Source: Clostridiales bacterium Firm_14 (lineage in GTDB: Bacteria; Bacillota; Clostridia; Saccharofermentanales; Saccharofermentanaceae). Taken from it: 64,000 nucleotides of DNA. The stretch spans positions 1 through 64,000 of the forward strand of contig LVAT01000005.1 in NCBI GenBank assembly GCA_001604135.1, in the 5' to 3' direction. Shown one piece after another: positions 3,001 through 60,601 of this stretch. How positions within the stretch are numbered: the first letter of the stretch is position 1; each line of letters begins with the position of its first letter. The notes under the pieces are model-generated. The model saw nothing but the letters and a program-made list of their open reading frames with translations. It had not been told where the DNA came from and did no database searches. The position numbers were made by a program, and so were the translations under genes.

Positions 3001-3933
3001 AACCTGTCTGTTAACTTCTACATTCCTGCTGATGAGGTCTCTGATTATGAGAACTACAGGCTTGTTGTTAAGAAGCAGGTATTCAACGGTTCTTCTTATA
3101 CATGGAAGGAGACAACTCTTACGGACTATACGACCAGTGTTCAGAGCGGTGTTACCTATCTGCGTTTTGTATATACCGGAGTAGCTGCAAAAGAGATGGG
3201 CGATGAATTAGAAGCAACGCTTTATATGGACCGTTATGGCATGACATTCAATACGACTGTGGACAGCTACAGCGTTAAGGAATATGCATATAACCGCCTT
3301 AAGTATTCTGACGATGATATATTTAAGACATTGCTTGTTGATATGCTGAATTACGGCGCTGCTTCACAGACATACTTTAAGTATAATACCGGTCACCTCG
3401 TAACTGCGGAACTGACAAGCGCTCAGAGAGCACTTGCTTCTGAGATGCCGGAGTTAAAGAGTGTCGAAGATTATATGCCTATCTTTACCGCTGATGAACC
3501 ATCTGCATATTTCTACGGGAAGAGCGTTGTAATGGGCAATAATGTCGAATTAAAGTATTACATGAGATTTGATTCGGGTGCCCCTGCCGATAGTGTTGTT
3601 TTGCATATTGAATACAAGACAGTAAGCGGAACATTGGTAAGCAAGAATTTCCACGCTTCCGAATTTGTTTACGATGCAAAGAATGATGCCTATACAGTTA
3701 AGATATCTGATATTTCCGCAAAGGATATGTGCTGTGCTATCGATGCAGCTCTATACGATGGCGAATATTCAAAAGATAATGATGATAACAGGATCAGCGA
3801 AATAATGACTTACAGTATAGAATCATATGTTTACAACCGACTTCAGAAATCTACTGATGAAAACTTCAAAGATTTAGTAAGAGCCATGATCAAGTATGGC
3901 AAATCGGCAGAAAAATATTTTAAAACACATTAA
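1..3933 (+). CDS. BspA-like leucine-rich repeat surface protein (5' end outside window)
   Basis: The reading frame is open from base 1, so the N-terminus lies upstream; the TTG at 52 is only an internal codon. The visible part (over 1,300 residues) is built of BspA/LRR_5 repeats with the recurring pattern I..IG..AF..C..L..V.IP..V. Four blocks are each introduced by a W-x(n)-G-x-L-x-I-x-G-T/F-G-x-M module. The last ~300 residues are not LRR: they hold two copies of another module, each ending in a pattern like Y-x-YNRL-x(n)-FK-x-L...YG..A..YF. No LPXTG motif or C-terminal membrane anchor is visible, so the attachment mode is unknown. Such proteins are usually surface-exposed and bind host or fibre ligands; that role is inferred. 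A short peptide gene follows 17 bases downstream. Confidence 0.9.
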   Translation, partial: LSYSDAVTTDKWILRAYLNENEDSPFADSKPFTIIKAVYSGTCGNNLNWSYEDGVLTIDGTGVMYNYDDTVAGSAPWHWLAANITSVELGPDVTTIGNYAFKDCKLLKTMVIPESIRQIGDYSFYKAGLQSVTISSKLLLIPTGAFAENDLRNVTVPSGIVQINSNAFASNPNLWKVTFPSSLGSIGDCAFANCRINEIVLPEGLTSIGEGAFSNNKTVWGIKFPDSVTNIGARAFADCSALQKLEFVGGAPTIGSNAFSNVTAKAYYVIGLNGWDSSTLKNYGGTITWVGLQTCSEDGKLTWSLKDGVLTISGTGYMTQYISGNKPGWYEDRDKIKSIIIMPGVARIGSHAFDDCTNVNTIIFYGSKPSFGFTPFTGVTANAYYTPDETWTNLPNYSDATITWIESNGQCGDNLFWRIDENKILHITGTGDMYDYPGNFSLPWYKWAEEIVGVEIASGCTSIGEGAFYSCSKIESVTMSSTVKTIGKNAFYRCSRLSSINLSSALTTIGESAFYYCYALSEITIPDKVTVIDETAFMGCSSLKSVVIPDSVVTLGLRAFAQCSSLEYVEIGKGVTVIPGSAFSSCKNLASVEFSGDVTAIYNYAFMGCSSLDYIELPASLKELGMSAFSGCTSLSRIKIHDKLESLDYGVFSGCSALSEAFFYGTPEQWDAVTKGSSNTALINIVRCVRAEGDCSKNDSTEYSDVMWRLFWDGELRIFGFGKMNSYENPNFASDSNKIAPWNEFKDDITCVIIEEGVTNVGSFAFYSFTNVKSAILPEGITSIEKFAFAFCAFTTLELPDTITEIQNNAFVNCNNLVSIVIPDGVQEISNDTFFRCKALTTVTIPESVTKIGKEAFRECVALTEITIPSTVTIIDNYAFDGCTGLEKVELNEGLKTINTNAFSNCSSLKEIVIPSTVTYIGNKGFSKCTSLKTVIFTGNAPLISTNRSFENVSTYAYYPATDSTWTESVRQDYGGTIKWVPYGEGDIIVKFSHSCSFSNNLSVNFYIPADEVSDYENYRLVVKKQVFNGSSYTWKETTLTDYTTSVQSGVTYLRFVYTGVAAKEMGDELEATLYMDRYGMTFNTTVDSYSVKEYAYNRLKYSDDDIFKTLLVDMLNYGAASQTYFKYNTGHLVTAELTSAQRALASEMPELKSVEDYMPIFTADEPSAYFYGKSVVMGNNVELKYYMRFDSGAPADSVVLHIEYKTVSGTLVSKNFHASEFVYDAKNDAYTVKISDISAKDMCCAIDAALYDGEYSKDNDDNRISEIMTYSIESYVYNRLQKSTDENFKDLVRAMIKYGKSAEKYFKTH

Positions 3934-25227: not shown

Positions 25228-26181
25228 TTATATGACCTTGCTTGATGACGGGAAATCCGAAGACGTCCTTGACGGGCGCGCGGGCTTTCCGGTCGGTTCC
25301 TTATTCTCAGGCGGTTCTTCCATCCGGTAAGTGGTTACGACGGTAGCAGACATTGTCTTATAAGTGCGCAGTAATTCTACACATTCCGCGTTCTTTGCTT
25401 CGACCTGCTTTTCCAATTCGTCGAGCTTTGCCTTAACAGGGACTTTGGCAGCCTCAAGGCTCTTGTTAGTAACGAATTTGATTATGTTGTAGATCGAGAC
25501 GAAGAACAGGATAAAGCCGGCTAATAAGATCGGTATCCAGTACTGACGATGGGCGATCGTGGCATAACCCAATCCGACCAGGATGACAATTCCGATCTCG
25601 ATAATAGCTGTCGCCACTTTATAGTTGTCTACCATAAATGAAGCGGCATCGCTCATGGCGGTACTGAACTGGCTGTTGTTTACCGTCTGTGCGCGGATCA
25701 GATCCCTGAGCTTTTTCTGAACTGCCATTCTGTCGTTCTCGAGATTTGCGAGTTCAGCTCTGCTCTTTCTGTAATCCTTTAGGACTTCCAGAGTCTTTTT
25801 GATCGTGCCGAAATACTCCTTGTGCTCAGGCATGCAGTTTTCTAACGCCCTTATGAGTTCAGGATCATCCGGATGCAGATGAACTTCTTCATTTTGCTGT
25901 ATCGGTGCCATTGTGGTCCATTTGCACTTGCAAAGGATCAGGCCCCTTAACGCTTCGAAATTGTGAGGGTCTTTCTTGAGCATGTACTCATAAGCGTCCC
26001 TGGCCGCACCGAATTCGTGTCTGGTGATGGACTTTTTGGCGAGCTCCAGAACATTGTCCTTACGGAAGTATTCATAGTCGAAGGTGACTCCGCAGAAAGG
26101 GCAGATATAGACCTGACGGTCGACATCGATGTCGAGAAGACCGCCGCACATCTTACATATGTTGCTCTTGATAACTGCCAT
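25228..26181 (-). CDS. Zinc-ribbon/TPR-like membrane protein, single-module paralogue
   Basis: 317 residues. The N-terminus (MAVIKSNICKMCGG) begins a zinc ribbon with C9, C12, C27 and C30, positions identical to those in the three tandem proteins at 54-59 kb. A TPR-like helical pair follows (AARDAYEYMLKKDPHNFEALRGLILC, residues ~58-85), then a coiled coil, two membrane segments (~190-235), a second coiled coil and a Pro/Ser-rich tail. It lacks the second zinc-ribbon module of its paralogues. Function unknown; a cytoplasmic zinc head tethered to the membrane is what the sequence shows. Divergent from the HerA-like ATPase gene. Confidence 0.8.
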   Translation of the reverse strand: MAVIKSNICKMCGGLLDIDVDRQVYICPFCGVTFDYEYFRKDNVLELAKKSITRHEFGAARDAYEYMLKKDPHNFEALRGLILCKCKWTTMAPIQQNEEVHLHPDDPELIRALENCMPEHKEYFGTIKKTLEVLKDYRKSRAELANLENDRMAVQKKLRDLIRAQTVNNSQFSTAMSDAASFMVDNYKVATAIIEIGIVILVGLGYATIAHRQYWIPILLAGFILFFVSIYNIIKFVTNKSLEAAKVPVKAKLDELEKQVEAKNAECVELLRTYKTMSATVVTTYRMEEPPENKEPTGKPARPSRTSSDFPSSSKVI

Positions 26182-26327
26182 GCTGTTCTCCGTACCTGCA
26201 CAAAATCTGCTATATTATAATATCAGATTTAAAAGAAAAATTTACCAATTTTGCTTTAGGGGATATATAATATATTAAATGCTTTGTGGACACCAGTCCA
26301 TTCACATAACAATTCAGGAGGCTTTAT

Positions 26328-27944
26328 ATGACCATTGAAGCTCTTTATGCAGGCAAGAACCCCCAAGACTTTTACATCGGCAAAGTAACCCAGGTTTACA
26401 GAAGCAACTGCGTTGCACAGGTTGAGAACTTTGACCTGATGTCCGACAGAACGAGATTCAACAAATCTTTTCTTCCTAACACGATCAACAACTTTGTAAT
26501 CATTGACTCGGTAGTTGGTCTGTTCCTTGGTGAGATCTTCGAGAACAAGGCTTCCAGAAAGAATATCTATGAAATGAAGACCGGTGACGTTAAGCCCAAC
26601 GATTACCAGGAAGTCTGCATCGACACTATCTCGTTGATGCCAACGGATTCCGATAAGTTCCAGCTCGCAGGTTTTAACACTCTCGGTATCACCGATAAGG
26701 TTTACCTCGCAACTGACGACGTTTATAAGCTCTTCTTAGCATCACTCGAGTTCACGGGCGAGAATGAGGAACCGCTTCCTTCTTTCGCTACATACCTCAA
26801 CAAGTCACAGGCTGAGGTATGCCTTAAGCCCAGTACGCTCTTCAACCGTCACCTTATGTGCATCGGCGCTACGAACAGCGGTAAGTCAACAACAGCTCTT
26901 GCTATCCTCGATAAGGTTGTTTCCACAAGAAGAAAGGCTCTTATCATTGACCCTACGGGCGAGTACAGAAACGCATTCACCAACGAAGAGATCACAAAGC
27001 TTACACTTGGTGTTGATACTACAGTATCTCCCGGCAAGATCTCCATGGAGCAGTGGGAGAAGCTCTTCGAGACAGAGAACAGCTCACAGGGCGCTGTCCT
27101 TTCCGAGGCTATCACATCACTCCGTTATATGAAGAAGATAGGATCGAATACTTACTATCCTAAGGTAGGTGAGGATATCGAAGAGGTTCAGGAGAACATC
27201 GCATCCGTAGGCAAGGACGACGTTGATTTCAACATTGAGCTCCTTCCTGAGCAGATCCAGGCTGAGTCCGTCTGCGAACCTGACAGAGACAGCGATTACA
27301 ACTTCAAGTACCGTTACGATACATTGAGAGCCAACCTCAATTCTTCACTCGTTCAGAAGATCCAGTATCAGATGACGAACACGAAGTTCCTCTCATTCTT
27401 CTCTAACGATCCCAGCATGTATAACCTCCTGGACGTTATCGAAGACTTCATTCATCTTCCTGAAGAGAGCCTTTACATCGATACATCACAACTCGGTGCA
27501 TCCGAAGGTATCGGCGGCATGATCATCGACCTCGTAAGCACATTCGTTATGTCCAGAGATGAGGTCTGCCCGTTTGTATTCTTCATTGATGAGGTACACA
27601 GATATGCTAAGTCCAGATACTCCGACAAGGAATATCACGGCGGTCTTACACTCCTCGCAAGAGAAGGCCGTAAGAAGGGTATCTTCCTTTACCTCACAAC
27701 ACAGAACCCGAAGGACGTATCTCCGATCCTCTTCGGTCAGATCGGTACGATGCTCATCCACAGACTCATGCTTAACGATGAGATCCGTGCTGTAGAGAGC
27801 CACCTTGACGATTACGCCATCAAGCACGTCAGAAAGCTCAATCAGGGTGAAGTTATCCTTACGAGCGTTAACCTCCTGCATAACATGTTCATCCATGTTA
27901 ACAAGAGCCCGAGAACGCAGCACAACGATACACCTCAGCTCTGA
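26328..27944 (+). CDS. HerA-like/DUF87 ATPase
   Basis: 538-residue P-loop ATPase of the HerA-FtsK superfamily. The N-terminal ~130 residues look like the HerA beta-barrel (IGKVTQVYRSNCVAQVEN...VVGLFLGEI). Walker A is GATNSGKST (180-188), Walker B is FVFFIDEVHRY (Asp421-Glu422), and the arginine-rich sensor is LLAREGRKKGIFLYLTTQNP. HerA proteins form hexameric DNA translocases and usually pair with NurA nuclease, or in phage defence with SIR2 or other effectors. No such partner is adjacent. AGGAGG precedes the ATG. Ends at a strong terminator, so it is monocistronic. Confidence 0.85.
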   Translation: MTIEALYAGKNPQDFYIGKVTQVYRSNCVAQVENFDLMSDRTRFNKSFLPNTINNFVIIDSVVGLFLGEIFENKASRKNIYEMKTGDVKPNDYQEVCIDTISLMPTDSDKFQLAGFNTLGITDKVYLATDDVYKLFLASLEFTGENEEPLPSFATYLNKSQAEVCLKPSTLFNRHLMCIGATNSGKSTTALAILDKVVSTRRKALIIDPTGEYRNAFTNEEITKLTLGVDTTVSPGKISMEQWEKLFETENSSQGAVLSEAITSLRYMKKIGSNTYYPKVGEDIEEVQENIASVGKDDVDFNIELLPEQIQAESVCEPDRDSDYNFKYRYDTLRANLNSSLVQKIQYQMTNTKFLSFFSNDPSMYNLLDVIEDFIHLPEESLYIDTSQLGASEGIGGMIIDLVSTFVMSRDEVCPFVFFIDEVHRYAKSRYSDKEYHGGLTLLAREGRKKGIFLYLTTQNPKDVSPILFGQIGTMLIHRLMLNDEIRAVESHLDDYAIKHVRKLNQGEVILTSVNLLHNMFIHVNKSPRTQHNDTPQL

Positions 27945-27969
27945 TACGGAACTTAACAAAGATAATATC

Positions 27970-27998
27970 TGCCCCGGAACTTCCGGGGCATTATTTTT
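27970..27998 (+). terminator. Terminator of the HerA-like gene
   Basis: Perfect arms TGCCCCGGA (27970-27978) and TCCGGGGCA (27982-27990), 3-base loop, then TTATTTTT. Confidence 0.85.
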
Positions 27999-28045
27999 GG
28001 GTTTGTAGTACAATTGTTGTCACTTGCATTATGGGGGCAATGATC

Positions 28046-28792
28046 ATGGCAAAGCAGAATATCTTCGACAACGAGATCTTTTTCGAGAACTATCAGAAGT
28101 TAAGAGAGAGGGAAGTAAACGCGAATAATCTCTTCGAGATCCCGGAGCGTCTTAAGCTTATGCCTGACCTTAAGGGCTTAAGGATATTGGATCTCGGATG
28201 CGGCGCGGGTGATGAGTGCAGCGAGTATATCAGGATGGGCGCTAAAGAAGTCGTCGGCGTCGACATCTCAGAGAAGATGCTTGAGGTTGCCAGAGAGAGG
28301 AACAGCGATCCTGACATCACATATCTTTGCATGCCCATGGAAGACATCGGCAATATCGAAGGCGGATTTGATCTTGTGGTAAGTTCATTGGCTCTTCATT
28401 ATATCGAGGATTTTAAGGGCGTGGTAAAAAACGTTAACAGGCTCCTTAACGAAGGCGGCATGTTCATTTTCTCGCAGGAACACCCGGTCGTCACATGTCA
28501 TGAAGACAGTTACGGCAGCAGATGGACCAAGGATGAGAACGGAAAAAAGATCCATTGTAATCTCGCGAACTACGGCAAAGAAGGCGAGCGCAATACAGTG
28601 TGGTTCGTCGATAACGTGAAGATATATCACAGGATGTTTTCCACGGTCATAAACGACCTTGTGGACGGCGGTTTTGCGATAGAAAGATTAGTCGAACCCG
28701 AGCCCTCGGAAGAGCTTCTGGAGAAGTACCCTGAGTACTATGATCTGTTCCACAAACCGGATTTCCTGTTGGTGAAGGCTCGAAAAGTATAA
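28046..28792 (+). CDS. Class I SAM-dependent methyltransferase
   Basis: About 248 residues with a Rossmann-type methyltransferase core. Motif I is RILDLGCGAGDE, motif II is VVGVDISEKMLEVA, and LVVSSLALHYIEDF corresponds to motif IV/post-IV (Methyltransf_11 type). The C-terminal lid region contains EHPVVT and GFAIERLVEPEPSEE, typical of small-molecule methyltransferases. Three ATGs are close together; the one at 28046 has GGGGG eight bases upstream. Substrate unknown. Convergent with the zinc-ribbon gene, separated by 11 bases with a small TGCAC/GTGCA hairpin. Confidence 0.85.
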   Translation: MAKQNIFDNEIFFENYQKLREREVNANNLFEIPERLKLMPDLKGLRILDLGCGAGDECSEYIRMGAKEVVGVDISEKMLEVARERNSDPDITYLCMPMEDIGNIEGGFDLVVSSLALHYIEDFKGVVKNVNRLLNEGGMFIFSQEHPVVTCHEDSYGSRWTKDENGKKIHCNLANYGKEGERNTVWFVDNVKIYHRMFSTVINDLVDGGFAIERLVEPEPSEELLEKYPEYYDLFHKPDFLLVKARKV

Positions 28793-32460: not shown

Positions 32461-33627
32461 TCAGCACCTCGGATTTCCGCATTCAGGACAGAATTTGCCG
32501 GTAAGTCCTGTCTGACCGCATGAGCAGTTCCACGGCCCGTTTGATTGAGCCTTAGCAGGGGATGTATTGGATTCTGCTCTCATGGCATCCATAGTCTGCT
32601 GCATTTGTAAAGCTGCCATCTGATTCGTGCCGATTCCCATAAAAGGAATGGATTCCGGCTGGTTATTTGCCTGATCGACTGTATAAAGATACGGATTTGC
32701 GGTGGATACTTCGATCTCCGCGCCGGAAACTTCCACGCATTCACAGATCAGGCGGGAGATCTCCTTATCAACTTCCTTGCCGCCCATCTTGCATGCTGCT
32801 TCACCAATAGTGCGCATAACGCGGGGAGCTCCTGTGATGAGCGAATCGTCATAGTAGATGTTGATGTTGGCGTTGAATGTGTAATCGAAAACGATCTCGC
32901 GCGGAATAGAAGGGTCAATGGCCGCATAATTCCAGCAAGGAAGATTCTCTCTGTCAGAGATCTCCTGGATCTTTGTAAAGATATCCGATTCAACTTCCTT
33001 TATATCAGTCTGCTCCGGCAGATCGCCCTGTTTTCTGTATAAAGTAACGCGTACGATGCCTTCCTTATCAGGGATCTTCTCGATCGTCTGCCTGCGCCAG
33101 ATATTGCTGTTATACATCATTCCGCTTTCGAAAGTACTTGTCTCAACGGCAATTACCGGTCCGTGCTCTTCTTTGAGTTTGCGGCAGTCTTCCAATGTAG
33201 GGTAGATATTCTCTTCAGAGATCTTCTTATCATCTTTGAACGTCTCGAAAAAAAGCTTCCTGAACTTCTCAGCGGCTTCATTTCCGATCTCTTCAGATAC
33301 TTCTCTGAATGTGATCTTTGAGGTCGTACCGTCATCAAATTTAAGCGTCAGCAGCTGTGAGATAACCGAACCGCCTTCTTCCGGGATCTTCGGTGCTGCA
33401 GGCGTCTTGCCGGTCCAGTCAAGGATCTTATAGGAATCGATCAGGCTCTTATACTGATCGATGGTTTCCTGACTTAACCGGAACTTTATTATCTCCGTAT
33501 AAATGGTTTCTCTTCTGTACTGGGTAGCAACAAGATCCTCGCCGGTGAAAGGAATATCTGCTTCCATCAAATGTTCAGATGTAGTGTAGATAAATGTGAT
33601 CTTGTGATTTATGCCTGTAATGGTCAT
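32461..33627 (-). CDS. Unknown protein with C-terminal zinc ribbon
   Basis: 388 residues. I do not recognise the main body: a beta-rich N-terminal half with charged stretches and no membrane segment or signal. Residues ~315-365 are Gln/Met/Ala-rich, and the last ~25 residues are a rubredoxin-like zinc ribbon with two Cys pairs (CSCGQTGLTGKFCPECGNP). Such ribbon tails are common on SPFH/virion-core-like and envelope-stress proteins of Clostridia, but the SPFH domain is not evident here. It lies between an acyltransferase and a GNAT gene in one operon. Confidence 0.65.
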   Translation of the reverse strand: MTITGINHKITFIYTTSEHLMEADIPFTGEDLVATQYRRETIYTEIIKFRLSQETIDQYKSLIDSYKILDWTGKTPAAPKIPEEGGSVISQLLTLKFDDGTTSKITFREVSEEIGNEAAEKFRKLFFETFKDDKKISEENIYPTLEDCRKLKEEHGPVIAVETSTFESGMMYNSNIWRRQTIEKIPDKEGIVRVTLYRKQGDLPEQTDIKEVESDIFTKIQEISDRENLPCWNYAAIDPSIPREIVFDYTFNANINIYYDDSLITGAPRVMRTIGEAACKMGGKEVDKEISRLICECVEVSGAEIEVSTANPYLYTVDQANNQPESIPFMGIGTNQMAALQMQQTMDAMRAESNTSPAKAQSNGPWNCSCGQTGLTGKFCPECGNPRC

Positions 33628-52586: not shown

Positions 52587-53265
52587 TGTTGGGATAGTTT
52601 TTAAGAAGGAACTGATGGATACGCTGAAGAATAAGACGGTGCTTATCCAGTTCATTATGTTTCCTTTAATGACGCTCGTTATGGAGAACGCGATCAGCAT
52701 TCCGGACATGCCGGAATATTTCTTCACCAAGCTTTTCGCCGTCATGTACATGGGAATGGCGCCTCTTACTTCGGCTGCATCGATAATCGCTGAAGAAAAG
52801 GAGAAGAATACATTAAGAGTCCTCATGATGGCAAACGTAAAGCCATGGGAATACCTCTTAGGCGTGGGATCATATGTCTGGGCGCTCTGCATGGCGGGCG
52901 CAGGATTGATGTCGACAGGACTTCCTGCTGAGAACATTCCGTTCTTCCTTGGCATAATGGCTGTCGGATTCATTATCTCCATCGCTGCAGGTGCGTGCGT
53001 CGGCGTTTTCTCGTCAAACCAGATGGTCGCGACATCACTTTTCATGCCTGTCATGCTGGTGTTCTCTTTCGCGCCCATGCTCGCGCTCTTCAATGATAAA
53101 ATAGAGAAAATAGCCAGGATATTCTACACGCAGCAGCTGCGCGTCCTGCTTAACCAAATGAGCTTTGACGGCATGAAGGCCGAGACGGTATTAGTCATAG
53201 CGGTAAACGCGCTTATTGCGGTCTGTCTCTTCTTCGTTGCCTTTAAAAGAAAAGGACTTGAGTGA
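52579..53265 (+). CDS. ABC-2-type permease of the LytTR operon
   Basis: 228 residues with six predicted membrane segments. An N-terminal VFKKELMDTLKNKTVL helix is typical of ABC-2/NatB-like exporters, and EEKEKNTLRVLMMANVKPWEYLLG is the characteristic cytoplasmic loop. The ATG at 52579 has GAGGAGG six bases upstream and lies inside the end of the ATPase gene. The stop overlaps the LytTR start by one base (TGATG). Substrate unknown; antimicrobial peptide or lipid-active compounds are common for such pairs. Confidence 0.87.
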   Translation: MRNVGIVFKKELMDTLKNKTVLIQFIMFPLMTLVMENAISIPDMPEYFFTKLFAVMYMGMAPLTSAASIIAEEKEKNTLRVLMMANVKPWEYLLGVGSYVWALCMAGAGLMSTGLPAENIPFFLGIMAVGFIISIAAGACVGVFSSNQMVATSLFMPVMLVFSFAPMLALFNDKIEKIARIFYTQQLRVLLNQMSFDGMKAETVLVIAVNALIAVCLFFVAFKRKGLE

Positions 53266-53705
53266 TGAAGATCAATCTGGACATTGACGGCAAATATGAC
53301 GATATAGAAGTCATAATCAGAGCGCCGCATCTGAACAACGACATCGAGCGGATGGTCGCAATGATGCGCATGATCGACATGCAGATCGCTGTCCGCCGCG
53401 ACAATGAAACGGTCTTGCTCGATACGGATAAGATACTTTATGTCGAAGCCGTCGACCGTAAGACTTTCGTATACACAAACACAGAAACCTATGAGTCTGA
53501 GCTTAAGCTCTATGAGCTTGAGCAGGAACTCGTTGAGCGTGATTTCTTAAGGATCAGCAAGCAGAGCATCGTGAACCTTCGTAAGATCAAGAGCTTAAAG
53601 ACTGACGTTAACCGCAAGATCAGGATCACGCTGCAGAATGGCGAACAGATCGTCGTATCGCGCATGTATTCAGATGAACTCAGAAGAAAGCTGGGGTTAA
53701 GATAA
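53265..53705 (+). CDS. LytTR-domain transcriptional regulator
   Basis: 146 residues: an N-terminal ~45-residue segment of unclear fold, then a LytTR DNA-binding domain (ILYVEAVDRKTFVYTNTETYESELKLYELEQEL...FLRISKQSIVNLRKIKSL...NGEQIVVSRMYSDELRRKL). There is no receiver domain, so it is not a classical two-component regulator. The next gene is a small four-helix membrane protein, the arrangement of LytTR regulatory systems such as HdrRM/BrsRM, in which the membrane protein restrains the regulator. AAAGGA lies eight bases before the ATG. Confidence 0.92.
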   Translation: MKINLDIDGKYDDIEVIIRAPHLNNDIERMVAMMRMIDMQIAVRRDNETVLLDTDKILYVEAVDRKTFVYTNTETYESELKLYELEQELVERDFLRISKQSIVNLRKIKSLKTDVNRKIRITLQNGEQIVVSRMYSDELRRKLGLR

Positions 53706-54169
53706 TGGAAGAGAAGAAAAATATTTTCGATTATATAAGGCAGTTATTTACTATCTTCGGAGTAATGGTCCTGATATTTGTCATATTTAATCTGATCGTA
53801 GGTGATGAAGCGAAAAGCATCTCCACGCTTTTCACGCTCGGCTCACAGGGACTTTTATCTGCAACATTGCTCCAGCTTCTGCTCATGGCATTGATAATCA
53901 CGGTGGCGCAGAATATATTCCTCACGGATATCCTTATTAAAAATCTTGCATTGATTGTCCGCAACATCTTATTCTTTGTGACCATCATGATCGCCATCAC
54001 CGCATTCGTTATCATCTTCGGGTGGTTCCCGATCGATAATGCTGCTGCCTGGATAGGGTTCTTTATCTCTTTTGCAGTCTGCACCGGAGTCAGCGCATGG
54101 CTCATGCACCTTGAGGAGAAGGCTGAGAACAAGAAGATGCAGGAAGCATTAAACAGACTGAAGAAATAG
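53705..54169 (+). CDS. DUF3021-like membrane protein, putative LytTR antagonist
   Basis: 154 residues with four predicted membrane segments (about 15-35, 45-70, 80-105 and 112-135) and a charged cytoplasmic tail (LEEKAENKKMQEALNRLKK). The start overlaps the LytTR stop by one base (TAATG). By position and topology it is a DUF3021-type partner of LytTR regulators, expected to hold the regulator inactive at the membrane. What signal releases it is not known. Confidence 0.8.
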   Translation: MEEKKNIFDYIRQLFTIFGVMVLIFVIFNLIVGDEAKSISTLFTLGSQGLLSATLLQLLLMALIITVAQNIFLTDILIKNLALIVRNILFFVTIMIAITAFVIIFGWFPIDNAAAWIGFFISFAVCTGVSAWLMHLEEKAENKKMQEALNRLKK

Positions 54170-54293: not shown

Positions 54294-55811
54294 ATGGCAG
54301 TACTTAAGAGTTATACGTGTTCCAAGTGCGGCGGCATCCTGAATTTCGATTCCGATCAGGAGTTTTTCGATTGTCCTTTCTGCGGCAATAAATTCGACAT
54401 CGTTGATTTCCACGAAGACGAGATAATGGCCCAGGCAGAAGAGAGCCTTAAGCAGAAAGCTTTTTCTTCTGCAAGGGAAAAGTTCAGTTCCGTATTGGAC
54501 AAAGATCCCACTGATTTTGAGGCTCTTAAGGGTCTGGTCTTATGTGAACTGAAAACAGTAAAATTGGAAGATTTAGTTTCTCCGCGCATATTTGATTCTG
54601 TTGACGATGCCGCTTTGAAAAATCTTATTGCGAGGGTGAATAAATATTCTCCCGATGATGCGGAACTTTTTAATAAGATCCTGATCCTGCAAGAACTCAG
54701 TACCAAATTGAAATCGTATCAGGGCAGAAGCAAAGCCCTGACTTCTGACCAAACAAGAGCGAAAGTAGATGAGGGTTTAGCCAGAGCAAGGGCCAGAAGG
54801 ATAGAAGCAGCAAATGAAGATTTTCACGCCGGATACGTTTTTGTTGTAATAGGCGTCATAATAGGCACGCTGATATTTGTTTTTGCCGAAGAATGGAACG
54901 GCTTAGGTATCTTGATCCTGGGAATATCAGTTGTTGCTGCCATGGTTGCAGAATCATCCCATAAAGAGTCTGTTCTTCAGGCTAATCCGACGCGTAATTC
55001 CAGGCAAATGAAGACTCAGATGGACAGCCAGTTCAACCGCTTAATCAAAATGTACGCCACGGAGTATAAAAAGATCCTGGAGCTCAGCAGCACTGCAACA
55101 GCAAGAATTCCGGTTGAGAAAGATCCTTCGGAGGCTAAAGAAACGTTCAACGAGATTGATCCGGATCATCAGGAGACCGTCATCTGTTCCAAGTGCGCTG
55201 CACAGCTCATTCTCGATAAGAAAAAGAGAGTCTACCAGTGTGATCACTGCGGCGTGGCCTATGGAATCTCACTGTTCTTCGGAATGCCCATGGAAAAAGC
55301 CTTAAATTCCATGAATACCGGCCGCTACAGCGAGGCAGAAAAAAGATTTGAGAATATCCTCATGGTAGAGCCGGAAAGCTTTGAAGCTTTTCTCGGACAG
55401 ATCCTTTGCGTAGGCAGATGGTCCAAGGTAAGTAATATCAGCGCAACTGACGATTTAAGCAAAGAGGATCTAAGCAGGCTCAACGAACTTTTTAGCGCTG
55501 CAAAGGAACGTGCTTTAGAAGCTGACAGGGCTTTTTTCGAGGAATTGGAAAAACTGACAGAAATGCTCGGCAAGATAAGCTTTAACAGGGGCAAACTTGA
55601 TGAACTGAACAAAGAAGTCGAGAGGCTTGAATCAGAGGCGCGCGTTTATTCCATGGCAGAAACCGCTTCTTTCGGCAATCATTTGCAAAAGAGAAGCAGA
55701 TACGATGATATAGAACGTTTCGAGAAAGAAAACAGGTATCTGACTCATGATTTCCATGCGCTTAAGAGGAAAATCGTAACAATGAAGACCGACAGCGTAC
55801 TCGTAAAATAA
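54294..55811 (+). CDS. Double zinc-ribbon/TPR-like membrane protein, copy 1
   Basis: 505 residues in two similar modules. Module 1: zinc ribbon C9, C12, C27, C30 (TCSKCGG...FDCPFCG), then a TPR-like pair (SAREKFSSVLDKDPTDFEALKG). Two membrane segments follow (~180-198 and ~203-220) after a basic coiled segment. Module 2: zinc ribbon C298, C301, C316, C319 (CSKCAAQ...YQCDHCGVAYG), a second TPR-like pair (AEKRFENILMVEPESFEAFLG) and a C-terminal coiled coil. Both modules should face the cytoplasm. I know no named family; function unknown. First of three tandem paralogues. Confidence 0.8.
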   Translation: MAVLKSYTCSKCGGILNFDSDQEFFDCPFCGNKFDIVDFHEDEIMAQAEESLKQKAFSSAREKFSSVLDKDPTDFEALKGLVLCELKTVKLEDLVSPRIFDSVDDAALKNLIARVNKYSPDDAELFNKILILQELSTKLKSYQGRSKALTSDQTRAKVDEGLARARARRIEAANEDFHAGYVFVVIGVIIGTLIFVFAEEWNGLGILILGISVVAAMVAESSHKESVLQANPTRNSRQMKTQMDSQFNRLIKMYATEYKKILELSSTATARIPVEKDPSEAKETFNEIDPDHQETVICSKCAAQLILDKKKRVYQCDHCGVAYGISLFFGMPMEKALNSMNTGRYSEAEKRFENILMVEPESFEAFLGQILCVGRWSKVSNISATDDLSKEDLSRLNELFSAAKERALEADRAFFEELEKLTEMLGKISFNRGKLDELNKEVERLESEARVYSMAETASFGNHLQKRSRYDDIERFEKENRYLTHDFHALKRKIVTMKTDSVLVK

Positions 55812-55840
55812 AGTGTTTGATTAAAGGGAGAGGGAGAAAA

Positions 55841-57379
55841 ATGGCTGTATTAAAGAGTTATACATGTTCAAAATGCGCAGGCGTCCTGATGTTCGATTCC
55901 GATCAGGAGTTTTTCGACTGCCCTTTCTGCGGCAACAAATTCAATGTAGTCGATTTTCACGGCGATGAGATCCTGGAACAGGCTAAGGAGAGTCTAAAGA
56001 AAAAGTCTTTCGATGCCGCAAAAGAGAAGTTCAAATCCGTATTGGAAAATGATCCGGAAAATTTCGAAGCTCTTCTTGGAGCAGTTCTTTGTGAGCTCCA
56101 CATTAAATCTATCGATGATCTGCTTGACCGCAAAGTGTTTGAAGGAAGAGACATTAAGCAGACAAGGAAGCTTCTTTTCAATGCCCAAAAGCAGGCTCCC
56201 AGGGACGGCGCAAAGTTCTTCGGCAAGATGTTGGAGATAGTTGGTCTTCATGAGAAACTGACCAAGCTCGAGAAGGCGAGCAAGGAGCTCTCAACCGGAG
56301 ACACCAGCTATACGATCAACCGTAAGATGGTCGATGCTTTCAAGGAAGAACAGGCGCAAAAGCAAAAAGACAGTGTCTGGATCATCCATGTTGTTTTCGG
56401 CGGGCTTTCCTTGCTTATGATTCCTCTTGCTTTTGTTGTGACGGATTTGATTTACGTAAGGATCTTTTTCTGTACCCTGTGTGCCGTTTTTGTCATCTGG
56501 GCGTTCATGCATGCGGCTAACATGAAGAAGATCGAAGAATCCTATACGCCTGCTAAATTCATCGCAAGATCATATAACACGTCGATCACAATGAGTGATT
56601 CGGATTATAAGAAAGCCTGCCGTGAGCTTAATACAATGTATCCTTCGTCAATGAGAGCGAAAACTAAACAGCGCGAATTAAATGAAGCAGCTAACCTGAA
56701 TAAGAGCTCTGAAACCGTCATCGATCCTGAAGAGACGATCATCTGTTCAAAGTGCGCCGCAAGACTCATTCTGGATAAGGATAAGAGAGTTTACCAGTGC
56801 AATCACTGCGGCGTGGCTTACGGCGTCTCATTGTTCTTTGGTCTTCCTATGGAAAAGGCCCTCAATTCAATGAATACCGGGCACTTCGGCGATGCAGAAC
56901 AGAGATACGGGAACATTCTCATGATCCATCCTTCGGATTTCGAAGCTCTCTTGGGACGCATCCTTTGCGCAGGCAAGTGGACTAAGATCAGCGATATCGA
57001 TCTTACCGATGACGTAAGTTCTACAAGAGAAGAAGACGTCAAGAAAATGATCGGTGAGGCTTTGCAGCATTCGTCTGCTGAAGACCGCCCGTATTTCGAG
57101 AATGTCGAAAAGCTCATTTCGCTCTTTGGAATTTATAACGAGAACAATAACAAGTTAGATGAGATCAACACTGAGCTTTCTGATTTTGATGCAAAAGCCG
57201 AAGTATATTCTTATGCTTATGATGAACCTAAATACAAGAAAAGACGCGCAGAAGAAAGATCTGACATCTTAAAAAAGTCATATCCGTACCGTATTGAGAA
57301 CAAGAAGATCGAAGATGAGTTCAGGGAATTGCGCAATTCGATTGTGGAATCACATGATGACAGTGTTCTTTGCAAATAG
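55841..57379 (+). CDS. Double zinc-ribbon/TPR-like membrane protein, copy 2
   Basis: 512 residues, same plan as the preceding protein: N-terminal ribbon C9/C12/C27/C30, TPR-like AAKEKFKSVLENDPENFEALLG, two membrane segments (~183-222), then a ribbon (CSKCAARLILDKDKRVYQC, CNHCGVAYG) and a TPR-like AEQRYGNILMIHPSDFEALLGR. The second module is the best conserved part between copies (FFGLPMEKALNSMNTG is nearly identical to copy 1). The start is the ATG at 55841 after AGGGAGAGGGAG; an ATG 24 bases upstream has no ribosome site. Gap from copy 1 is 29 bases. Confidence 0.8.
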   Translation: MAVLKSYTCSKCAGVLMFDSDQEFFDCPFCGNKFNVVDFHGDEILEQAKESLKKKSFDAAKEKFKSVLENDPENFEALLGAVLCELHIKSIDDLLDRKVFEGRDIKQTRKLLFNAQKQAPRDGAKFFGKMLEIVGLHEKLTKLEKASKELSTGDTSYTINRKMVDAFKEEQAQKQKDSVWIIHVVFGGLSLLMIPLAFVVTDLIYVRIFFCTLCAVFVIWAFMHAANMKKIEESYTPAKFIARSYNTSITMSDSDYKKACRELNTMYPSSMRAKTKQRELNEAANLNKSSETVIDPEETIICSKCAARLILDKDKRVYQCNHCGVAYGVSLFFGLPMEKALNSMNTGHFGDAEQRYGNILMIHPSDFEALLGRILCAGKWTKISDIDLTDDVSSTREEDVKKMIGEALQHSSAEDRPYFENVEKLISLFGIYNENNNKLDEINTELSDFDAKAEVYSYAYDEPKYKKRRAEERSDILKKSYPYRIENKKIEDEFRELRNSIVESHDDSVLCK

Positions 57380-57396
57380 CAAAGGAGGATAGTGTA

Positions 57397-58944
57397 ATGT
57401 CGGTGGTTAAAAGCTATACATGTTCCAAGTGCGGCGCAGTTCTGAACTTTGATTCCGACCGGGAATTCTTCGATTGCCCGTTCTGCGGAAGCAAGTTCAA
57501 CAGCGGTGCTTTCCACAGCGATGAGCTTTTCTCACAGGCAAAAGCAGGCCTCGAACAAAAAGCATATGAACTTGCCAAAGAAAAGTATCAGCTGATCCTT
57601 GCCGATGACCCTCATAACTTCGATGCTCTTTTGGGCATTGTGCTTTGTGAGGCAGGTGTTGCATCTGTTGACGGGATGGAAGATCCTGACAACTTGCAGA
57701 AGGCTGATCTTGATAAAGTCAGAGAAGCTGCCGGCAGAGCAATGAATAACAGCACTGTTTCCGAAGCGCGGTTCTTTGAGCTTCTTTCGGAACTTGCCGG
57801 TAAAGCGGATGAGATCAAGAAGGTCAAAAATGTTGAACGTGAGATCGATTCGGGAACGACGGGAAAGAGATTCGAGGCGTCAGCACAAGTTGTTAAGGTA
57901 TCAAATGATCAAATAGACAGTCACAATACATTTTTCGGAATCTTAGCGGCAATTTTGCTTATCGGCGGAGTGTTTTCGGGCATAATAGGAATATTGTCCG
58001 ATAACGATCTTCTAAAAGTTATAGCTGCTTTTATGCTCGTAGGTTTAGTGTTTGTGGTGTCCCGTCTGATCTTATGGAACAAGGCTGTCGGTGACCTTGT
58101 AACTCCGATACGCATGGTGGATGAAGTGGGAAGAAACGCAAAAAGAAATGCTTCAAGGGAAGCAGAGCGCGAAATGGAGAACTACAAAAAGATCTATTCG
58201 CAATTAACTCATTCTTATCCCGAACGGAAAGAACCGTCCGGACCTGCTGCGGAGCCTGTGAAGGCTGAAGACGAAGACTTGGTTCATTCCGTTGATCCCG
58301 GAAAGAAGATTGTCTGCGACAAGTGCGGAGCCGAACTGTTTCTTGATAAGTCCGGGCGCGTCTACAGGTGTGATCACTGCGGCGTGGCGTACGGAGTCTC
58401 TCTGTTCTTCGGGCTTTCGCTCGAGAAAGCCTTAAGTACGTTAAATGCCGGTTATTTTGCGGAAGCTGACAGCCGCCTTTCTCACGTCCTGATGCAGACG
58501 CCGTCTGATTTTGATGCCTGCCTCGGAAGGATCCTTTGCTGCGGCCGCTGGACGAAGATAAGCGATATCGATTATACGCGAAATGTCACGATCGATCTGA
58601 TCAGAAAGCTCGAGAGCCTGACAAAAGATGCGCAGGAGCGTGTCAGCGAATCCGACCGGGAATTCTTCTTTAAGATGAAAGAACTGATCAACATCCTTTC
58701 CACGCTCATGATCAACAAGAACAAACAAAACAAGCTCACAGTCCAAATGGATGAGCATGAGGCTGTCAGGAAAGCATATTCGTATTCATATCAATATGTG
58801 AAAACCAATATTGAAAATGCGAAAAGACAGACCGACTATGATCTCAGAACGCTTAAGCTCAGCGAAGAAAAGATATATAGAAGATTTGAAACATTGAAGA
58901 ACGAATTGATCGGCATGAGAAGTGACAGCGTATTCTGCAAATAA
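57397..58944 (+). CDS. Double zinc-ribbon/TPR-like membrane protein, copy 3
   Basis: 515 residues, the most diverged of the three. N-terminal ribbon C9/C12/C27/C30 (MSVVKSYTCSKCGAVLNF), TPR-like LAKEKYQLILADDPHNFDALLG, two membrane segments (~182-225), second ribbon (CDKCGAELFLDKSGRVYRC, CDHCGVAYG) and TPR-like ADSRLSHVLMQTPSDFDACLGR, ending in a coiled coil. AAAGGAGG lies eight bases before the ATG at 57397. All three end in a similar short motif (SDSVxxK / DDSVLCK / TDSVLVK). Co-transcribed with copies 1 and 2. Confidence 0.8.
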   Translation: MSVVKSYTCSKCGAVLNFDSDREFFDCPFCGSKFNSGAFHSDELFSQAKAGLEQKAYELAKEKYQLILADDPHNFDALLGIVLCEAGVASVDGMEDPDNLQKADLDKVREAAGRAMNNSTVSEARFFELLSELAGKADEIKKVKNVEREIDSGTTGKRFEASAQVVKVSNDQIDSHNTFFGILAAILLIGGVFSGIIGILSDNDLLKVIAAFMLVGLVFVVSRLILWNKAVGDLVTPIRMVDEVGRNAKRNASREAEREMENYKKIYSQLTHSYPERKEPSGPAAEPVKAEDEDLVHSVDPGKKIVCDKCGAELFLDKSGRVYRCDHCGVAYGVSLFFGLSLEKALSTLNAGYFAEADSRLSHVLMQTPSDFDACLGRILCCGRWTKISDIDYTRNVTIDLIRKLESLTKDAQERVSESDREFFFKMKELINILSTLMINKNKQNKLTVQMDEHEAVRKAYSYSYQYVKTNIENAKRQTDYDLRTLKLSEEKIYRRFETLKNELIGMRSDSVFCK

Positions 58945-58988: not shown

Positions 58989-59795
58989 TTGTCTGATTCT
59001 TTAGTAATTAATATCGAAGGCTGTGATGTCGAGCCCGAATCTCTTGGACGCGACGGGCTTATGCTGCTGCAACACAAAGACTGCTATAAGCTTGATACTG
59101 CAAGTGTGCTTTTGGCATGGTTTGCTGCTTCCTTTGCGCGACTTGGAAAACCCAGCGAGATGTTAGAACTGGGAAGCGGCACGGGCGGAGTTTCCTTGCT
59201 TACTTCGGCGCGCTGTAAGAATGCGCATATAGACGGCGTTGAGCTTGTTGAGCTTGCTTACAAAGTCTTCTGTGAGAACATAAAACTCAATAACTTGTCA
59301 GACCGTATAACTGCTTATAATTGCGACCTGCGCGATCTTCCTGCCTCGGTAAAGGAAAAGGCCTACGACGTGGTCTTCATGAACCCGCCGTTTTACGACG
59401 GAACCAAAGGTTCGGTAACTGATTCATCTGTCAAGCCTGAGCACGAGAAGTCGGCCCGCTTTGCAGACTGCGGTGTGCTCGAGGACTTTGTGCGCGTTCA
59501 GTCTTTGCGTACCAGGACCAGCGGCGGATTTGCCGTAATGTGCATCAATCCCGAGCGCGTGCCCGAATGTTTTGCTTTATACTCGAAATATAAGATCACA
59601 CCTGTTAGACTTCTTACTGTTCATGCAAATGCTTCAAAGCCTGCTTTTCTGGCTTTGATCGCAGGAAAGAAGGGCGCGCCGAACGCTGAGTTTAAGGCTC
59701 TCCCGCCTTTGTTTATAAACGAAGAAGGATCATCGGCCCTCACAAAGAGAGCTGTACGCATATACGAGGAGGAACATACGGATTGCTTTATCTAG
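58989..59795 (+). CDS. trmN6: tRNA1(Val) A37 N6-methyltransferase-like protein (TrmN6/YabB)
   Basis: 268-residue SAM methyltransferase. It starts with the substrate-side DGLMLLQHKDCYKLDTASVLLAWF, then motif I MLELGSGTGGVSLL and the N6-adenine signature MNPPFYDG. This family modifies A37 of tRNA-Val in E. coli; the B. subtilis orthologue is YabB. Start is a TTG at 58989; the ribosome site is weak, so the start is moderately certain. It overlaps rsmI by 13 bases, as in the conserved yabB-yabC arrangement. Confidence 0.85.
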   Translation: MSDSLVINIEGCDVEPESLGRDGLMLLQHKDCYKLDTASVLLAWFAASFARLGKPSEMLELGSGTGGVSLLTSARCKNAHIDGVELVELAYKVFCENIKLNNLSDRITAYNCDLRDLPASVKEKAYDVVFMNPPFYDGTKGSVTDSSVKPEHEKSARFADCGVLEDFVRVQSLRTRTSGGFAVMCINPERVPECFALYSKYKITPVRLLTVHANASKPAFLALIAGKKGAPNAEFKALPPLFINEEGSSALTKRAVRIYEEEHTDCFI

Positions 59796-60601
59796 TAGGC
59801 ACACCAATAGGAAACCTTGATGATATGTCGCCCAGAGCATGCGAAGTGCTTAAGAGCGTTGATGTTATAGCCTGTGAGGATACGAGAGTAACGGGCATTC
59901 TTTTATCCCAGCTCGGCATAACGGGTAAGCGCCTTATCGCTTACCATGAGCACAACAAGGCCGCGAGCGGCAACGGGATAATCGATCTTCTGAAGCAGGG
60001 ATTGAATGTCGCTGAAGTATCCGATGCCGGTATGCCCGCCATAAGCGATCCGGGTGCTGATCTGGCGTTGCTCGCTGCCGAGAATGGTATAGAGATCTCT
60101 GTCATACCCGGACCTTCTGCAGTTACAGCTGCTTTGAGCATTTCAGGACTTGATACCAGATATTTCCATTTTGAAGGATTCCTTCCTTCGGAGGGATCAA
60201 AAAGACGCGAGAGATTAAAGGCCCTGACCCTGATCGGTGAGACCATCGTTCTTTATGAAGCGCCTCACCGCCTGAAGAAGCTTCTTGATGAGCTTGCCGG
60301 GGCCGGATTCGGCAGTAACAAGATCGCTCTGTGCCGCGAACTTACAAAAAAGTACGAAGAAGTACTGCGCATGACGGTTGCTGAATCGGTCGAATACTAT
60401 AAGAGTAACGAGCCGCGCGGCGAATTCTGCATTTGTTTAGAGCCTATGGAGCAGCAGACGATGGCCGCTGCAGGCGATGGAACCAAGCTTATTGCTCTGC
60501 TTAAAGAAAAGGGCATGTCTTCAAAGGATATTTCTTCTGTTGTGTCTGAATATACGGGCATGAACAAGAAGGAAGCCTATAAGATAGCGAGCGAATCCTG
60601 A
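59783..60601 (+). CDS. rsmI: 16S rRNA C1402 2'-O-methyltransferase RsmI
   Basis: 272 residues of the tetrapyrrole-methylase superfamily. Diagnostic sequences: LYLVGTPIGNLDDMSPRA, VIACEDTRVTGILL, EVSDAGMPAISDPG, VIPGPSAVTAALS and YEAPHRLKKLLDEL. It methylates the ribose of C1402 in the decoding centre. The start is a TTG at 59783, ten bases after GAGGAGG. The C-terminal ~45 residues form the short helical domain (LLKEKGMSSKDISSVVSEYTGMNKKEAYKIA). Confidence 0.95.
   Translation: MLYLVGTPIGNLDDMSPRACEVLKSVDVIACEDTRVTGILLSQLGITGKRLIAYHEHNKAASGNGIIDLLKQGLNVAEVSDAGMPAISDPGADLALLAAENGIEISVIPGPSAVTAALSISGLDTRYFHFEGFLPSEGSKRRERLKALTLIGETIVLYEAPHRLKKLLDELAGAGFGSNKIALCRELTKKYEEVLRMTVAESVEYYKSNEPRGEFCICLEPMEQQTMAAAGDGTKLIALLKEKGMSSKDISSVVSEYTGMNKKEAYKIASES

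Follow-up and report, generated by a model that had tools for sequence, protein, structure and literature searches.

The window, meaning the whole 64,000-nucleotide stretch of Clostridiales bacterium Firm_14 DNA that was analysed, holds three successive intact ORFs that encode proteins of one plan (Table 1), as the sequence-only reading had described for a tandem triplet of ~505-515-residue proteins. The ORF translations also confirmed its observation that Cys 9/12/27/30 occupy identical positions in all three proteins, and the same is true of Cys84; the second Cys quartets lie at 298/301/316/319, 302/305/320/323 and 307/310/325/328 in genes 1, 2 and 3, respectively. Relative to gene 1, identity is 43 % for gene 2 and 33 % for gene 3, and the ATG common to all copies is found 24 bases downstream of the mechanically called TTG start in gene 2 and 27 bases downstream of it in gene 3. 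The genome contains 11 intact ORFs of this paralogous family; the triplet is one of its sites, and a fourth member lies in the window at 25228–26181. No RNA element was detected around the triplet at Rfam gathering scores, and the promoter and terminator scans, with 5 promoter-like sites where 10.6 were expected and 14 terminator-like ones where 8.3 were expected, were not used.

Table 1. Triplet genes, their parts and neighbouring genes in the window
Feature	Position	Strand	Basis
Fourth paralogue, single module and TM hairpin, 317 aa, own tail motif	25228..26181	-	ORF, alignment
LytTR DNA-binding regulator, upstream neighbour	53262..53705	+	profile match
Membrane protein, sub-threshold DUF3021 match, neighbour	53705..54169	+	profile match
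Gene 1, 505 aa, ribbon–TPR–2TM–ribbon–TPR–coil	54294..55811	+	ORF, alignment
Gene 1 C-terminal tail	55785-55808	+	same place as gene 2 tail
Gene 2, 512 aa, plan as gene 1	55841..57379	+	ORF, alignment, AlphaFold2
Gene 2 zinc ribbon 1, residues 1-35, Cys 9/12/27/30	55841..55945	+	Cys positions, short ribbon profile matches
Gene 2 module 1 TPR-like helices, residues 36-118	55946..56194	+	profile match, AlphaFold2, structure alignment
Gene 2 hairpin of two hydrophobic TM helices, residues 177-228	56369..56524	+	hydrophobic windows
Gene 2 zinc ribbon 2, residues 299-330, Cys 302/305/320/323	56735..56830	+	Cys positions, module 2 model
Gene 2 module 2 TPR-like helices, residues 331-410	56831..57070	+	full and module 2 models
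Gene 2 two-helix coiled coil, residues 411-504	57071..57352	+	models, structure comparison
Gene 2 conserved C-terminal tail	57353..57376	+	homologue alignment, module 2 model
Gene 3, 515 aa, plan as gene 1	57397..58944	+	ORF, alignment
Gene 3 C-terminal tail	58918-58941	+	same place as gene 2 tail
Small-domain methyltransferase, conserved downstream neighbour	58989..59795	+	locus comparison, profile
RsmI 16S rRNA methyltransferase, conserved downstream neighbour	59783..60601	+	locus comparison, profile

Using AlphaFold2 we modelled the full gene 2 protein with a mean pLDDT of 80.7; the model shows a coiled coil and a helical hairpin besides TPR-like helix pairs, and its ribbon 1 region (first 40 residues) reaches just 48–54. 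Module 2 modelled alone was confident (pLDDT 91.7), with ribbon 2 formed of three strands at the level of secondary structure (pLDDT about 83–91) and the C-terminal tail as its last block (pLDDT 89). A zinc ribbon is recognised by two CxxC knuckles with short β-strands, and these are present as the Cys quartets of all copies and the strands of ribbon 2. For the helices, gene 1 matches PF14559 TPR_19 above the curated cut-off (26.3 vs 25 bits, residues 52-88) and genes 2 and 3 match below it, and solved TPR chains align with module 1 at 2.4–2.9 Å over ~90 residues, with Z <9 in the range where the tool warns of helical repeats. Unlike in these TPR proteins, the repeats of the triplet are short, come after a ribbon and belong to a membrane-anchored protein. 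Foldseek returned no match at E<=0.001 against the PDB, or for the full protein against BFVD; VIA matches to module 2 were mostly coiled coils, such as p85 iSH2, with Z at about 9, the tool's warning level for long helices, and they hardly probe the ribbon and first helices. The CxxC–CxxC ribbons weakly match many short models (A2L, RPB9, Cas12f TNB and others), and such matches are short and, for genes 1-3 in Pfam and NCBIfam, all under the curated cut-offs; they indicate a ribbon and not a family.

Two hydrophobic windows, with threshold and search zone as set in the analysis, are present in 38/38 homologues, and the mean K+R count is 2.9 before TM1, 0.55 between the TMs and 3.1 after TM2, which argues for an N-in/C-in topology. 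Both ribbon and TPR-like modules are thus predicted from sequence and models to flank the membrane hairpin on the cytoplasmic side. The earlier proposal of a membrane-tethered cytoplasmic scaffold or sensor is upheld as far as the tethered two-ribbon/TPR architecture is concerned, from AlphaFold2 and the charge pattern; the scaffold or sensor role itself stays conjectural.

Conservation did not single out module 2 as the best conserved part, contrary to what had been suggested. Among the three copies identity is 83 % in ribbon 1, 73 % in ribbon 2, 48 % in TPR2 and 40 % in TPR1, so that ribbon plus TPR of the two modules are practically tied and ribbon 1 is the best conserved part. In the set of 38 homologues, conservation is higher in TPR2 than in TPR1, but higher in ribbon 1 than in ribbon 2. 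In these homologues the ribbons, TPR2 and, less so, the tail are kept over deep paralogues while the coils drift. The C-terminal tail, by a pattern composed after inspecting the tails, is conserved in 32/38 and often carries a Cys; five of the six homologues that miss the pattern form one subfamily.

A tree of 157 modules separated the module 2 copies from all others with a support of 0.997 and no module 1 copy inside. This clade comprises 52 copies from two-module ORFs and 12 from single-module ORFs (one of them a fused gene with a stop), and fused and split module 1 copies (56 and 12) cluster together with a weak support of 0.435; the trees left out window and mutual duplicate loci, identical sequences, weak module matches and those under about 100 residues. 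In the split form, the gene for a protein with the membrane hairpin adjoins a gene for a soluble protein; this form was found as two adjacent ORFs in 8 of the 11 loci inspected (L022, L171 and L173–L178, with misses at L172, L179 and L180), additionally in L048 and L081 and, among the matches listed, in at least 14 of 98 genomes (8 of the own genus and 6 of the sister genus). The tree topology indicates that both module types predate their fusion or fission, in both genera, and on the tree evidence modules 1 and 2 are old sister lineages. An internal duplication of the ribbon–TPR module, as had been envisaged, is therefore not supported as a recent event. Likewise, genes 1-3 sit in three different supported clades with relatives from other species (L055:3405 and L161:11813 with gene 1; L072 and L166:8114 with gene 3), so that the gene triplication that had been put forward did not, as an event in this lineage, give rise to the triplet; the same site has 1–4 family genes in different species.

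Within the order, profile matches were found in 2 of the 30 genera sampled. In the taxonomic family 31/98 genomes are without a match at E<=1e-10 among the matches listed, as are 18 of the 62 genomes that are >=90 % complete and <=5 % contaminated, which makes these proteins dispensable; the lists scored at most 15 or 8 candidates per genome, depending on the search, and several contigs recur under different handles (e.g. L055, L162), so that genome and locus counts are not independent. Full-length open frames of the family are present in many genomes, again among the matches listed. The judgement that no known system could be assigned has held, as searches of Pfam, NCBIfam, PADLOC, PHROGs and the PDB gave no full-length match to the triplet proteins. 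In PADLOC, which covers known defence proteins, the ribbons matched Cas12f-type models over short stretches, and the longer matches were weak, for instance gene 3 residues 226-473 against a Cas10 model (18.1 bits, E 2.3e-4); PHROGs returned mostly ribbon-only matches plus two weak others. A full-text literature search, whose coverage takes in few subscription papers, found no title or abstract describing the family. Phage and plasmid origins were considered and dropped: 73 IMG/VR contig stretches fit a pattern and 0 encode a relative by tblastn, and PLSDB plasmids gave no match. This is a family without a full-length model in four profile libraries and with many copies in rumen-type Saccharofermentans-like bacteria.

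Using hhalign, a single comparison of the family with ribbon–TPR–TIR proteins gave 97.6 % over 120 columns (E 3.5e-12), with the alignment restricted to ribbon and TPR of module 1; the single-module type gave 98.2 %, and a genome search linked the family to these proteins at E 9.1e-11. In contrast, a ribbon–TM protein of a different kind gave 76.6 % over 37 columns, in the ribbon only. By these profile comparisons, ribbon–TPR–TIR proteins have an N-terminus homologous to ribbon and TPR of module 1, and such immune-type TIR proteins, often encoded beside SPFH genes (Band_7_1, PF13421), are the nearest relatives that the family has outside itself. The TIR proteins, from genomes of the same class, share with module 1 a homologous N-terminal start, Cys4 ribbon and TPR, and at least one (L104) ends in TPR, coil and TM hairpin; they differ by a TIR domain and by C-termini that vary, DUF6273 being one example, and neither module 2 nor the tail was seen in them. 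An SPFH-type gene adjoins the TIR type in 6 of the 7 loci fetched by TIR query, one being a short fragment, with these genes named by eye through their resemblance to L130, for which SPFH identity was tested. Furthermore, in genome G040 (L156) 2.8 kb separate the SPFH gene from a family member of 582 aa, and a single-module relative lies within a TIR/SPFH cluster (L158). No TIR domain was present in the window proteins among the best 25 of 28–34 matches of genes 1–3, and none of the genes beside the triplet is SPFH or TIR. The two TIR_2 matches of this genome are on contigs C12 and C16, and its homologue of the TIR-linked SPFH gene is on C9 with its own ribbon–TM neighbour, which matches the family in the ribbon only. 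PF01145 alone is uninformative on SPFH presence, because 14/14 control genomes match it. Close kinship to the SPFH-operon ribbon–TM protein (L155:10405-11229) was considered and dropped, as that alignment covers the ribbon only.

The neighbourhood could suggest a dedicated partner of adjacent ABC transporters and the LytTR/DUF3021-like pair, which senses or modulates transport or is the regulator's target. In several species ABC–LytTR–DUF3021-like genes do precede the ribbon genes at the triplet site, and methyltransferase–RsmI follow them in 10/38 loci (37 fetched plus the window) and in 8/10 further stretches, some on the same contigs; however, 19 of the 28 fetched named two-module loci are situated elsewhere, in contexts that are scattered, and sites L066, L166 and L170 have the downstream genes with no ABC/LytTR genes directly before the ribbon genes. 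As the block also includes the housekeeping genes RsmI and MetG, plain synteny may explain the association, and we regard such a partnership as quite improbable. We give similarly little credence to a zinc or redox sensor, in which ribbons and Cys84 would answer metal or oxidant and alter the coiled coil or hairpin. Two Cys4 ribbons, a Cys84 invariant in genes 1-3 and the fourth paralogue, and a tail often with Cys would fit, but Cys84 is Ser, Ala or Val in several of the 38 homologues, and stable zinc ribbons are usually structural.

An anti-phage or conflict component, a lineage-specific expansion with a defence role and kinship to the ribbon–TPR–TIR/SPFH clusters, would be in keeping with the homology to TIR proteins, the copy number and paralogue content that vary at one site, and the relative in the TIR/SPFH cluster of L158. 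Nevertheless, the window proteins have no effector domain in Pfam and NCBIfam profile searches and no full-length PADLOC match, no relative was found in IMG/VR viral contigs or PLSDB plasmids, and the chromosomal position is fixed beside housekeeping genes, all of which makes this unlikely. Equally unlikely, in our estimate, is an ordinary tolerated paralogous expansion with a generic structural role only, e.g. as a membrane coat, and no specific clients: the 31/98 genomes without a listed match and the scattered two-module contexts favour it, but the ribbons, TPR2 and, less so, the tail are conserved across deep paralogues with drifting coils, and many genomes keep full-length open frames among the matches listed.

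The reading we prefer, tentatively and at somewhat less than even odds, is that the triplet encodes membrane-tethered adaptors that hold cytoplasmic clients, with modules 1 and 2 working as a pair. By the logic of gene fusion, the split and fused forms suggest that the two modules act on each other, and the hairpin would keep them together on the inner side of the membrane. In a structural role, the ribbons may cap TPR docking surfaces, and the conserved tail may pack onto a TPR groove, either of its own protein or of a sister copy, or be a ligand for it; such contacts would let different paralogues combine and bring cytoplasmic clients to the membrane. Since the ribbon+TPR module is common by descent to SPFH-linked TIR proteins, envelope-stress or conflict signalling would be the likeliest setting, and the link suggests that an immune-type docking module is also used in membrane adaptors. 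In Bacillus subtilis, according to PMC8581546, PspA and the SPFH protein YdjI are kept at the membrane by the membrane proteins YdjG/YdjH; anchoring of a cytoplasmic complex would be the shared feature, at the level of function only, although an SPFH gene is absent next to the triplet. Against adaptors speak this lack of SPFH or TIR neighbours, the scattered contexts, the dispensability and the generic nature of TPR folds and structural matches. The separate ribbon–TM neighbour of the C9 SPFH gene, the restriction of the TIR alignment to ribbon and TPR of module 1, and the subfamily that makes up five of the six tail misses count against them as well. An extended form, to which we assign a low probability, is a combinatorial array of effector-less paralogues with the SPFH-linked TIR docking module, hairpin and paired second module, whose tails would plug each other's TPR sockets, so that the 1–4 genes at this site and others elsewhere would form species-specific mixed complexes. 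The natural split and fused forms yield a clean, testable prediction of an intermodule interface.

The intergenic gaps of the triplet measure 29 and 17 bases, and each of its proteins begins with a four-cysteine (Cys4) zinc ribbon, TPR-like helices, a long helix and two membrane helices, and continues with a coil, a linker, a second Cys4 ribbon, further TPR-like helices, a two-helix coiled coil and a conserved tail. The Cys positions claimed in the sequence-only reading are exact in the triplet proteins; its proposal that conservation peaks in module 2 (the second ribbon with its TPR-like helices) holds only in part, as ribbon 1 surpasses every other element in conservation. A cytoplasmic location is predicted for both ribbon/TPR modules: averaged across 38 homologues, K and R lie on either outer flank of the membrane hairpin, with few between its two helices. 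Module 2 alone gave a confident predicted fold (pLDDT 91.7), in which the tail is likewise confident (last block pLDDT 89).

Features of the window discussed here
Feature	Position	Strand	State
Triplet gene 1	54294–55811	one common strand	intact, tandem
Triplet gene 2	55841–57379	one common strand	intact, tandem
Triplet gene 3	57397–58944	one common strand	intact, tandem
Leucine-rich-repeat gene	52-3933
Single-module paralogue and HerA-like gene	25228-28792
Double-ribbon gene	28804-30384
Gene with C-terminal ribbon tail	32461-33627

At the last residues, 32 of 38 proteins carry the pattern [SC]-x-[LFV]-x-[KR], which was composed after inspecting the tails and has its second place restricted to ten residue kinds. 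Tail entropy was 1.66 bits versus 2.68 bits in the preceding coil, which is among the least conserved parts; the ribbons and TPR2 are conserved above the tail in these 38 proteins. Five of the six misses form one subfamily of the full-length tree (L034, L035, L047, L064 and L055:287, with L047 entered as the identical gene L163:8772), and the remaining one, L075, stops one residue early. A different tail, SSDFPS-like, is common to the single-module paralogue type.

Against Pfam, NCBIfam, PADLOC and PHROGs the triplet gave for the most part short hits to ribbons, low-scoring TPR hits and a small number of longer but weak hits, with no full-length known family in any of the four. For gene 1, TPR_19 and, on the same helices, a TT21 ARM-repeat model scored above the curated Pfam cut-offs, and genes 2 and 3 had no Pfam family above cut-off among the matches listed. 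The best match in a PDB profile search (E 0.0076) was to a TPR segment.

In the Firm_14 genome itself, 23 family matches reached E<=1 and 14 of these lay below 1e-6; we interpret them as 11 intact ORFs plus two short fragments. The intact members in the window are the triplet and a 317-aa single-module paralogue; elsewhere, contig C13 holds two tandem family genes (616–632 aa), C6 a split pair of adjacent single-module genes, and C10, C18 and C19 single genes. A protein search of relatives matched 17 of 40 genomes, comprising 17/24 in the genus (Firm_14 included) and 0/16 elsewhere in the order. With a profile, matches were found in 67/98 genomes of the taxonomic family (2/5 genera) and 80/188 of the order (2/30 genera), both at E<=1e-10, and in 16/391 of the class (9/222 genera) at E<=1e-6; seven of these 16 belong to the same genus and the other nine match only within profile positions 1–264. 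The named contigs carry the labels Saccharofermentans, Ruminococcaceae, Oscillospiraceae, Clostridiales or Clostridia, plus one each of Lachnospiraceae and Mageeibacillus, and nearly all are metagenome assemblies; the YAD3003 genome record carries no such mark. We conclude that the family is real and lineage-restricted, and that it belongs to an already known kind of protein, the zinc-ribbon/TPR membrane proteins, the family itself not being found described in the literature searched. Its interest lies more in module history and relatives than in the triplet itself.

Judged by their sequences, modules 1 and 2 represent distinct, old lineages. A tree built from 157 modules placed no module 1 copies in the module 2 group (support 0.997), whose members came from two-module ORFs in 52 cases and from single-module ORFs in 12; one of these 12 (L046) is a fused gene interrupted by a stop. 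The module 1 group, with 56 and 12 such copies, respectively, had weak support (0.435). Split pairs, in which a membrane gene adjoins a soluble gene, are present in both genera, in 8 of 11 loci inspected plus L048 and L081, and in at least 14 genomes of the taxonomic family by our reading of the matches listed. The 613–630-aa proteins of L025, L049 and L082 arose from a separate duplication, because their own two modules group with each other. Here (L025:7623-9464, L049 and L082:11557) a single-module type duplicated independently into a second two-module kind, convergent with the triplet architecture.

Of 38 loci (the window and 37 that were fetched), 10 have a methyltransferase and RsmI downstream of the ribbon gene(s), with one ribbon gene (e.g. 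L060, L072), two (L067, L166), three (the window, L055) or four (L161) per site. The methyltransferase is a small-domain type that matches TrmN below the cut-off, and RsmI and MetG score above theirs. The remaining 19 of 28 fetched two-module loci are away from this site in varied contexts. When 52 full-length proteins were placed in a tree, gene 1 grouped with L055:3405 and L161:11813 (support 0.99), gene 3 with L166:8114 and L072 (1.00), and gene 2 in another clade (1.00; nearest-neighbour support inside it 0.46). Given these different clades and the variable gene number, the site contains old paralogues in a combination that varies.

Through the class-level matches we reached proteins in which the shared N-terminal ribbon and TPR precede a TIR domain (PF13676; tests covered L104, L128 and L158), beyond which lie more TPR and variable C-termini, one a coil with a transmembrane hairpin. 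Profile comparison supports homology between these and the triplet family over ~120 columns. A search of 291 class genomes with the L104 protein gave matches in 21 at E<=1e-8; 15 of these start at residue 1–3, and six are confined to the TIR or what follows it. An SPFH-type gene adjoins the TIR type in six of seven fetched stretches (in L133 as a short fragment only) and is absent beside it in the seventh, L134. SPFH identity was tested in four proteins (Band_7_1), with others assigned by likeness. The TIR type also occurs in stretches of G083 (same genus) and G042 (sister genus), both selected for their SPFH gene, and the G042 cluster also contains a single-module ribbon–TPR relative. The Firm_14 SPFH gene, on C9, has a different ribbon–membrane neighbour.

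Several ribbon–TPR–TIR genes stand in tandem in L128, L129 and L157; in these and L158 their C-terminal domains differ (DUF6273 in L128 and L158), and they adjoin an SPFH-type gene and a small membrane protein. The four clusters look like a polymorphic immune-type system. Separately, L025:13500-14204 has a helix-turn-helix-like start (by eye), a ribbon and a repeat region, and resembles by eye the ribbon part of the SPFH-operon neighbour.

We favour the triplet proteins being membrane adaptors, in which two docking modules would be held at the membrane and recruit putative cytoplasmic clients to it. Modules 1 and 2 may act as a pair, because fused and split genes both occur. The setting could be envelope stress or conflict, given the descent and the precedent for SPFH anchoring at the membrane in B. 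subtilis (PMC8581546). Two observations count against the adaptor reading: no SPFH or TIR gene adjoins the triplet, and no family member was seen in roughly a third of the related genomes.

Elsewhere in the window, the single-module paralogue is divergent from an adjoining HerA-like ATPase (DUF87; strong PADLOC HerA match); of 8 long-flank loci carrying such a paralogue, 6 retain the pair, which sits inside a longer conserved gene order. The double-ribbon protein is TFIIB-type with a hydrophobic stretch, and the C-terminal ribbon tail at 32461-33627 resembles, by eye, SPFH protein tails at L155 and L156. Near the window edge is the start of a large leucine-rich-repeat protein, which we take to be BspA-like.
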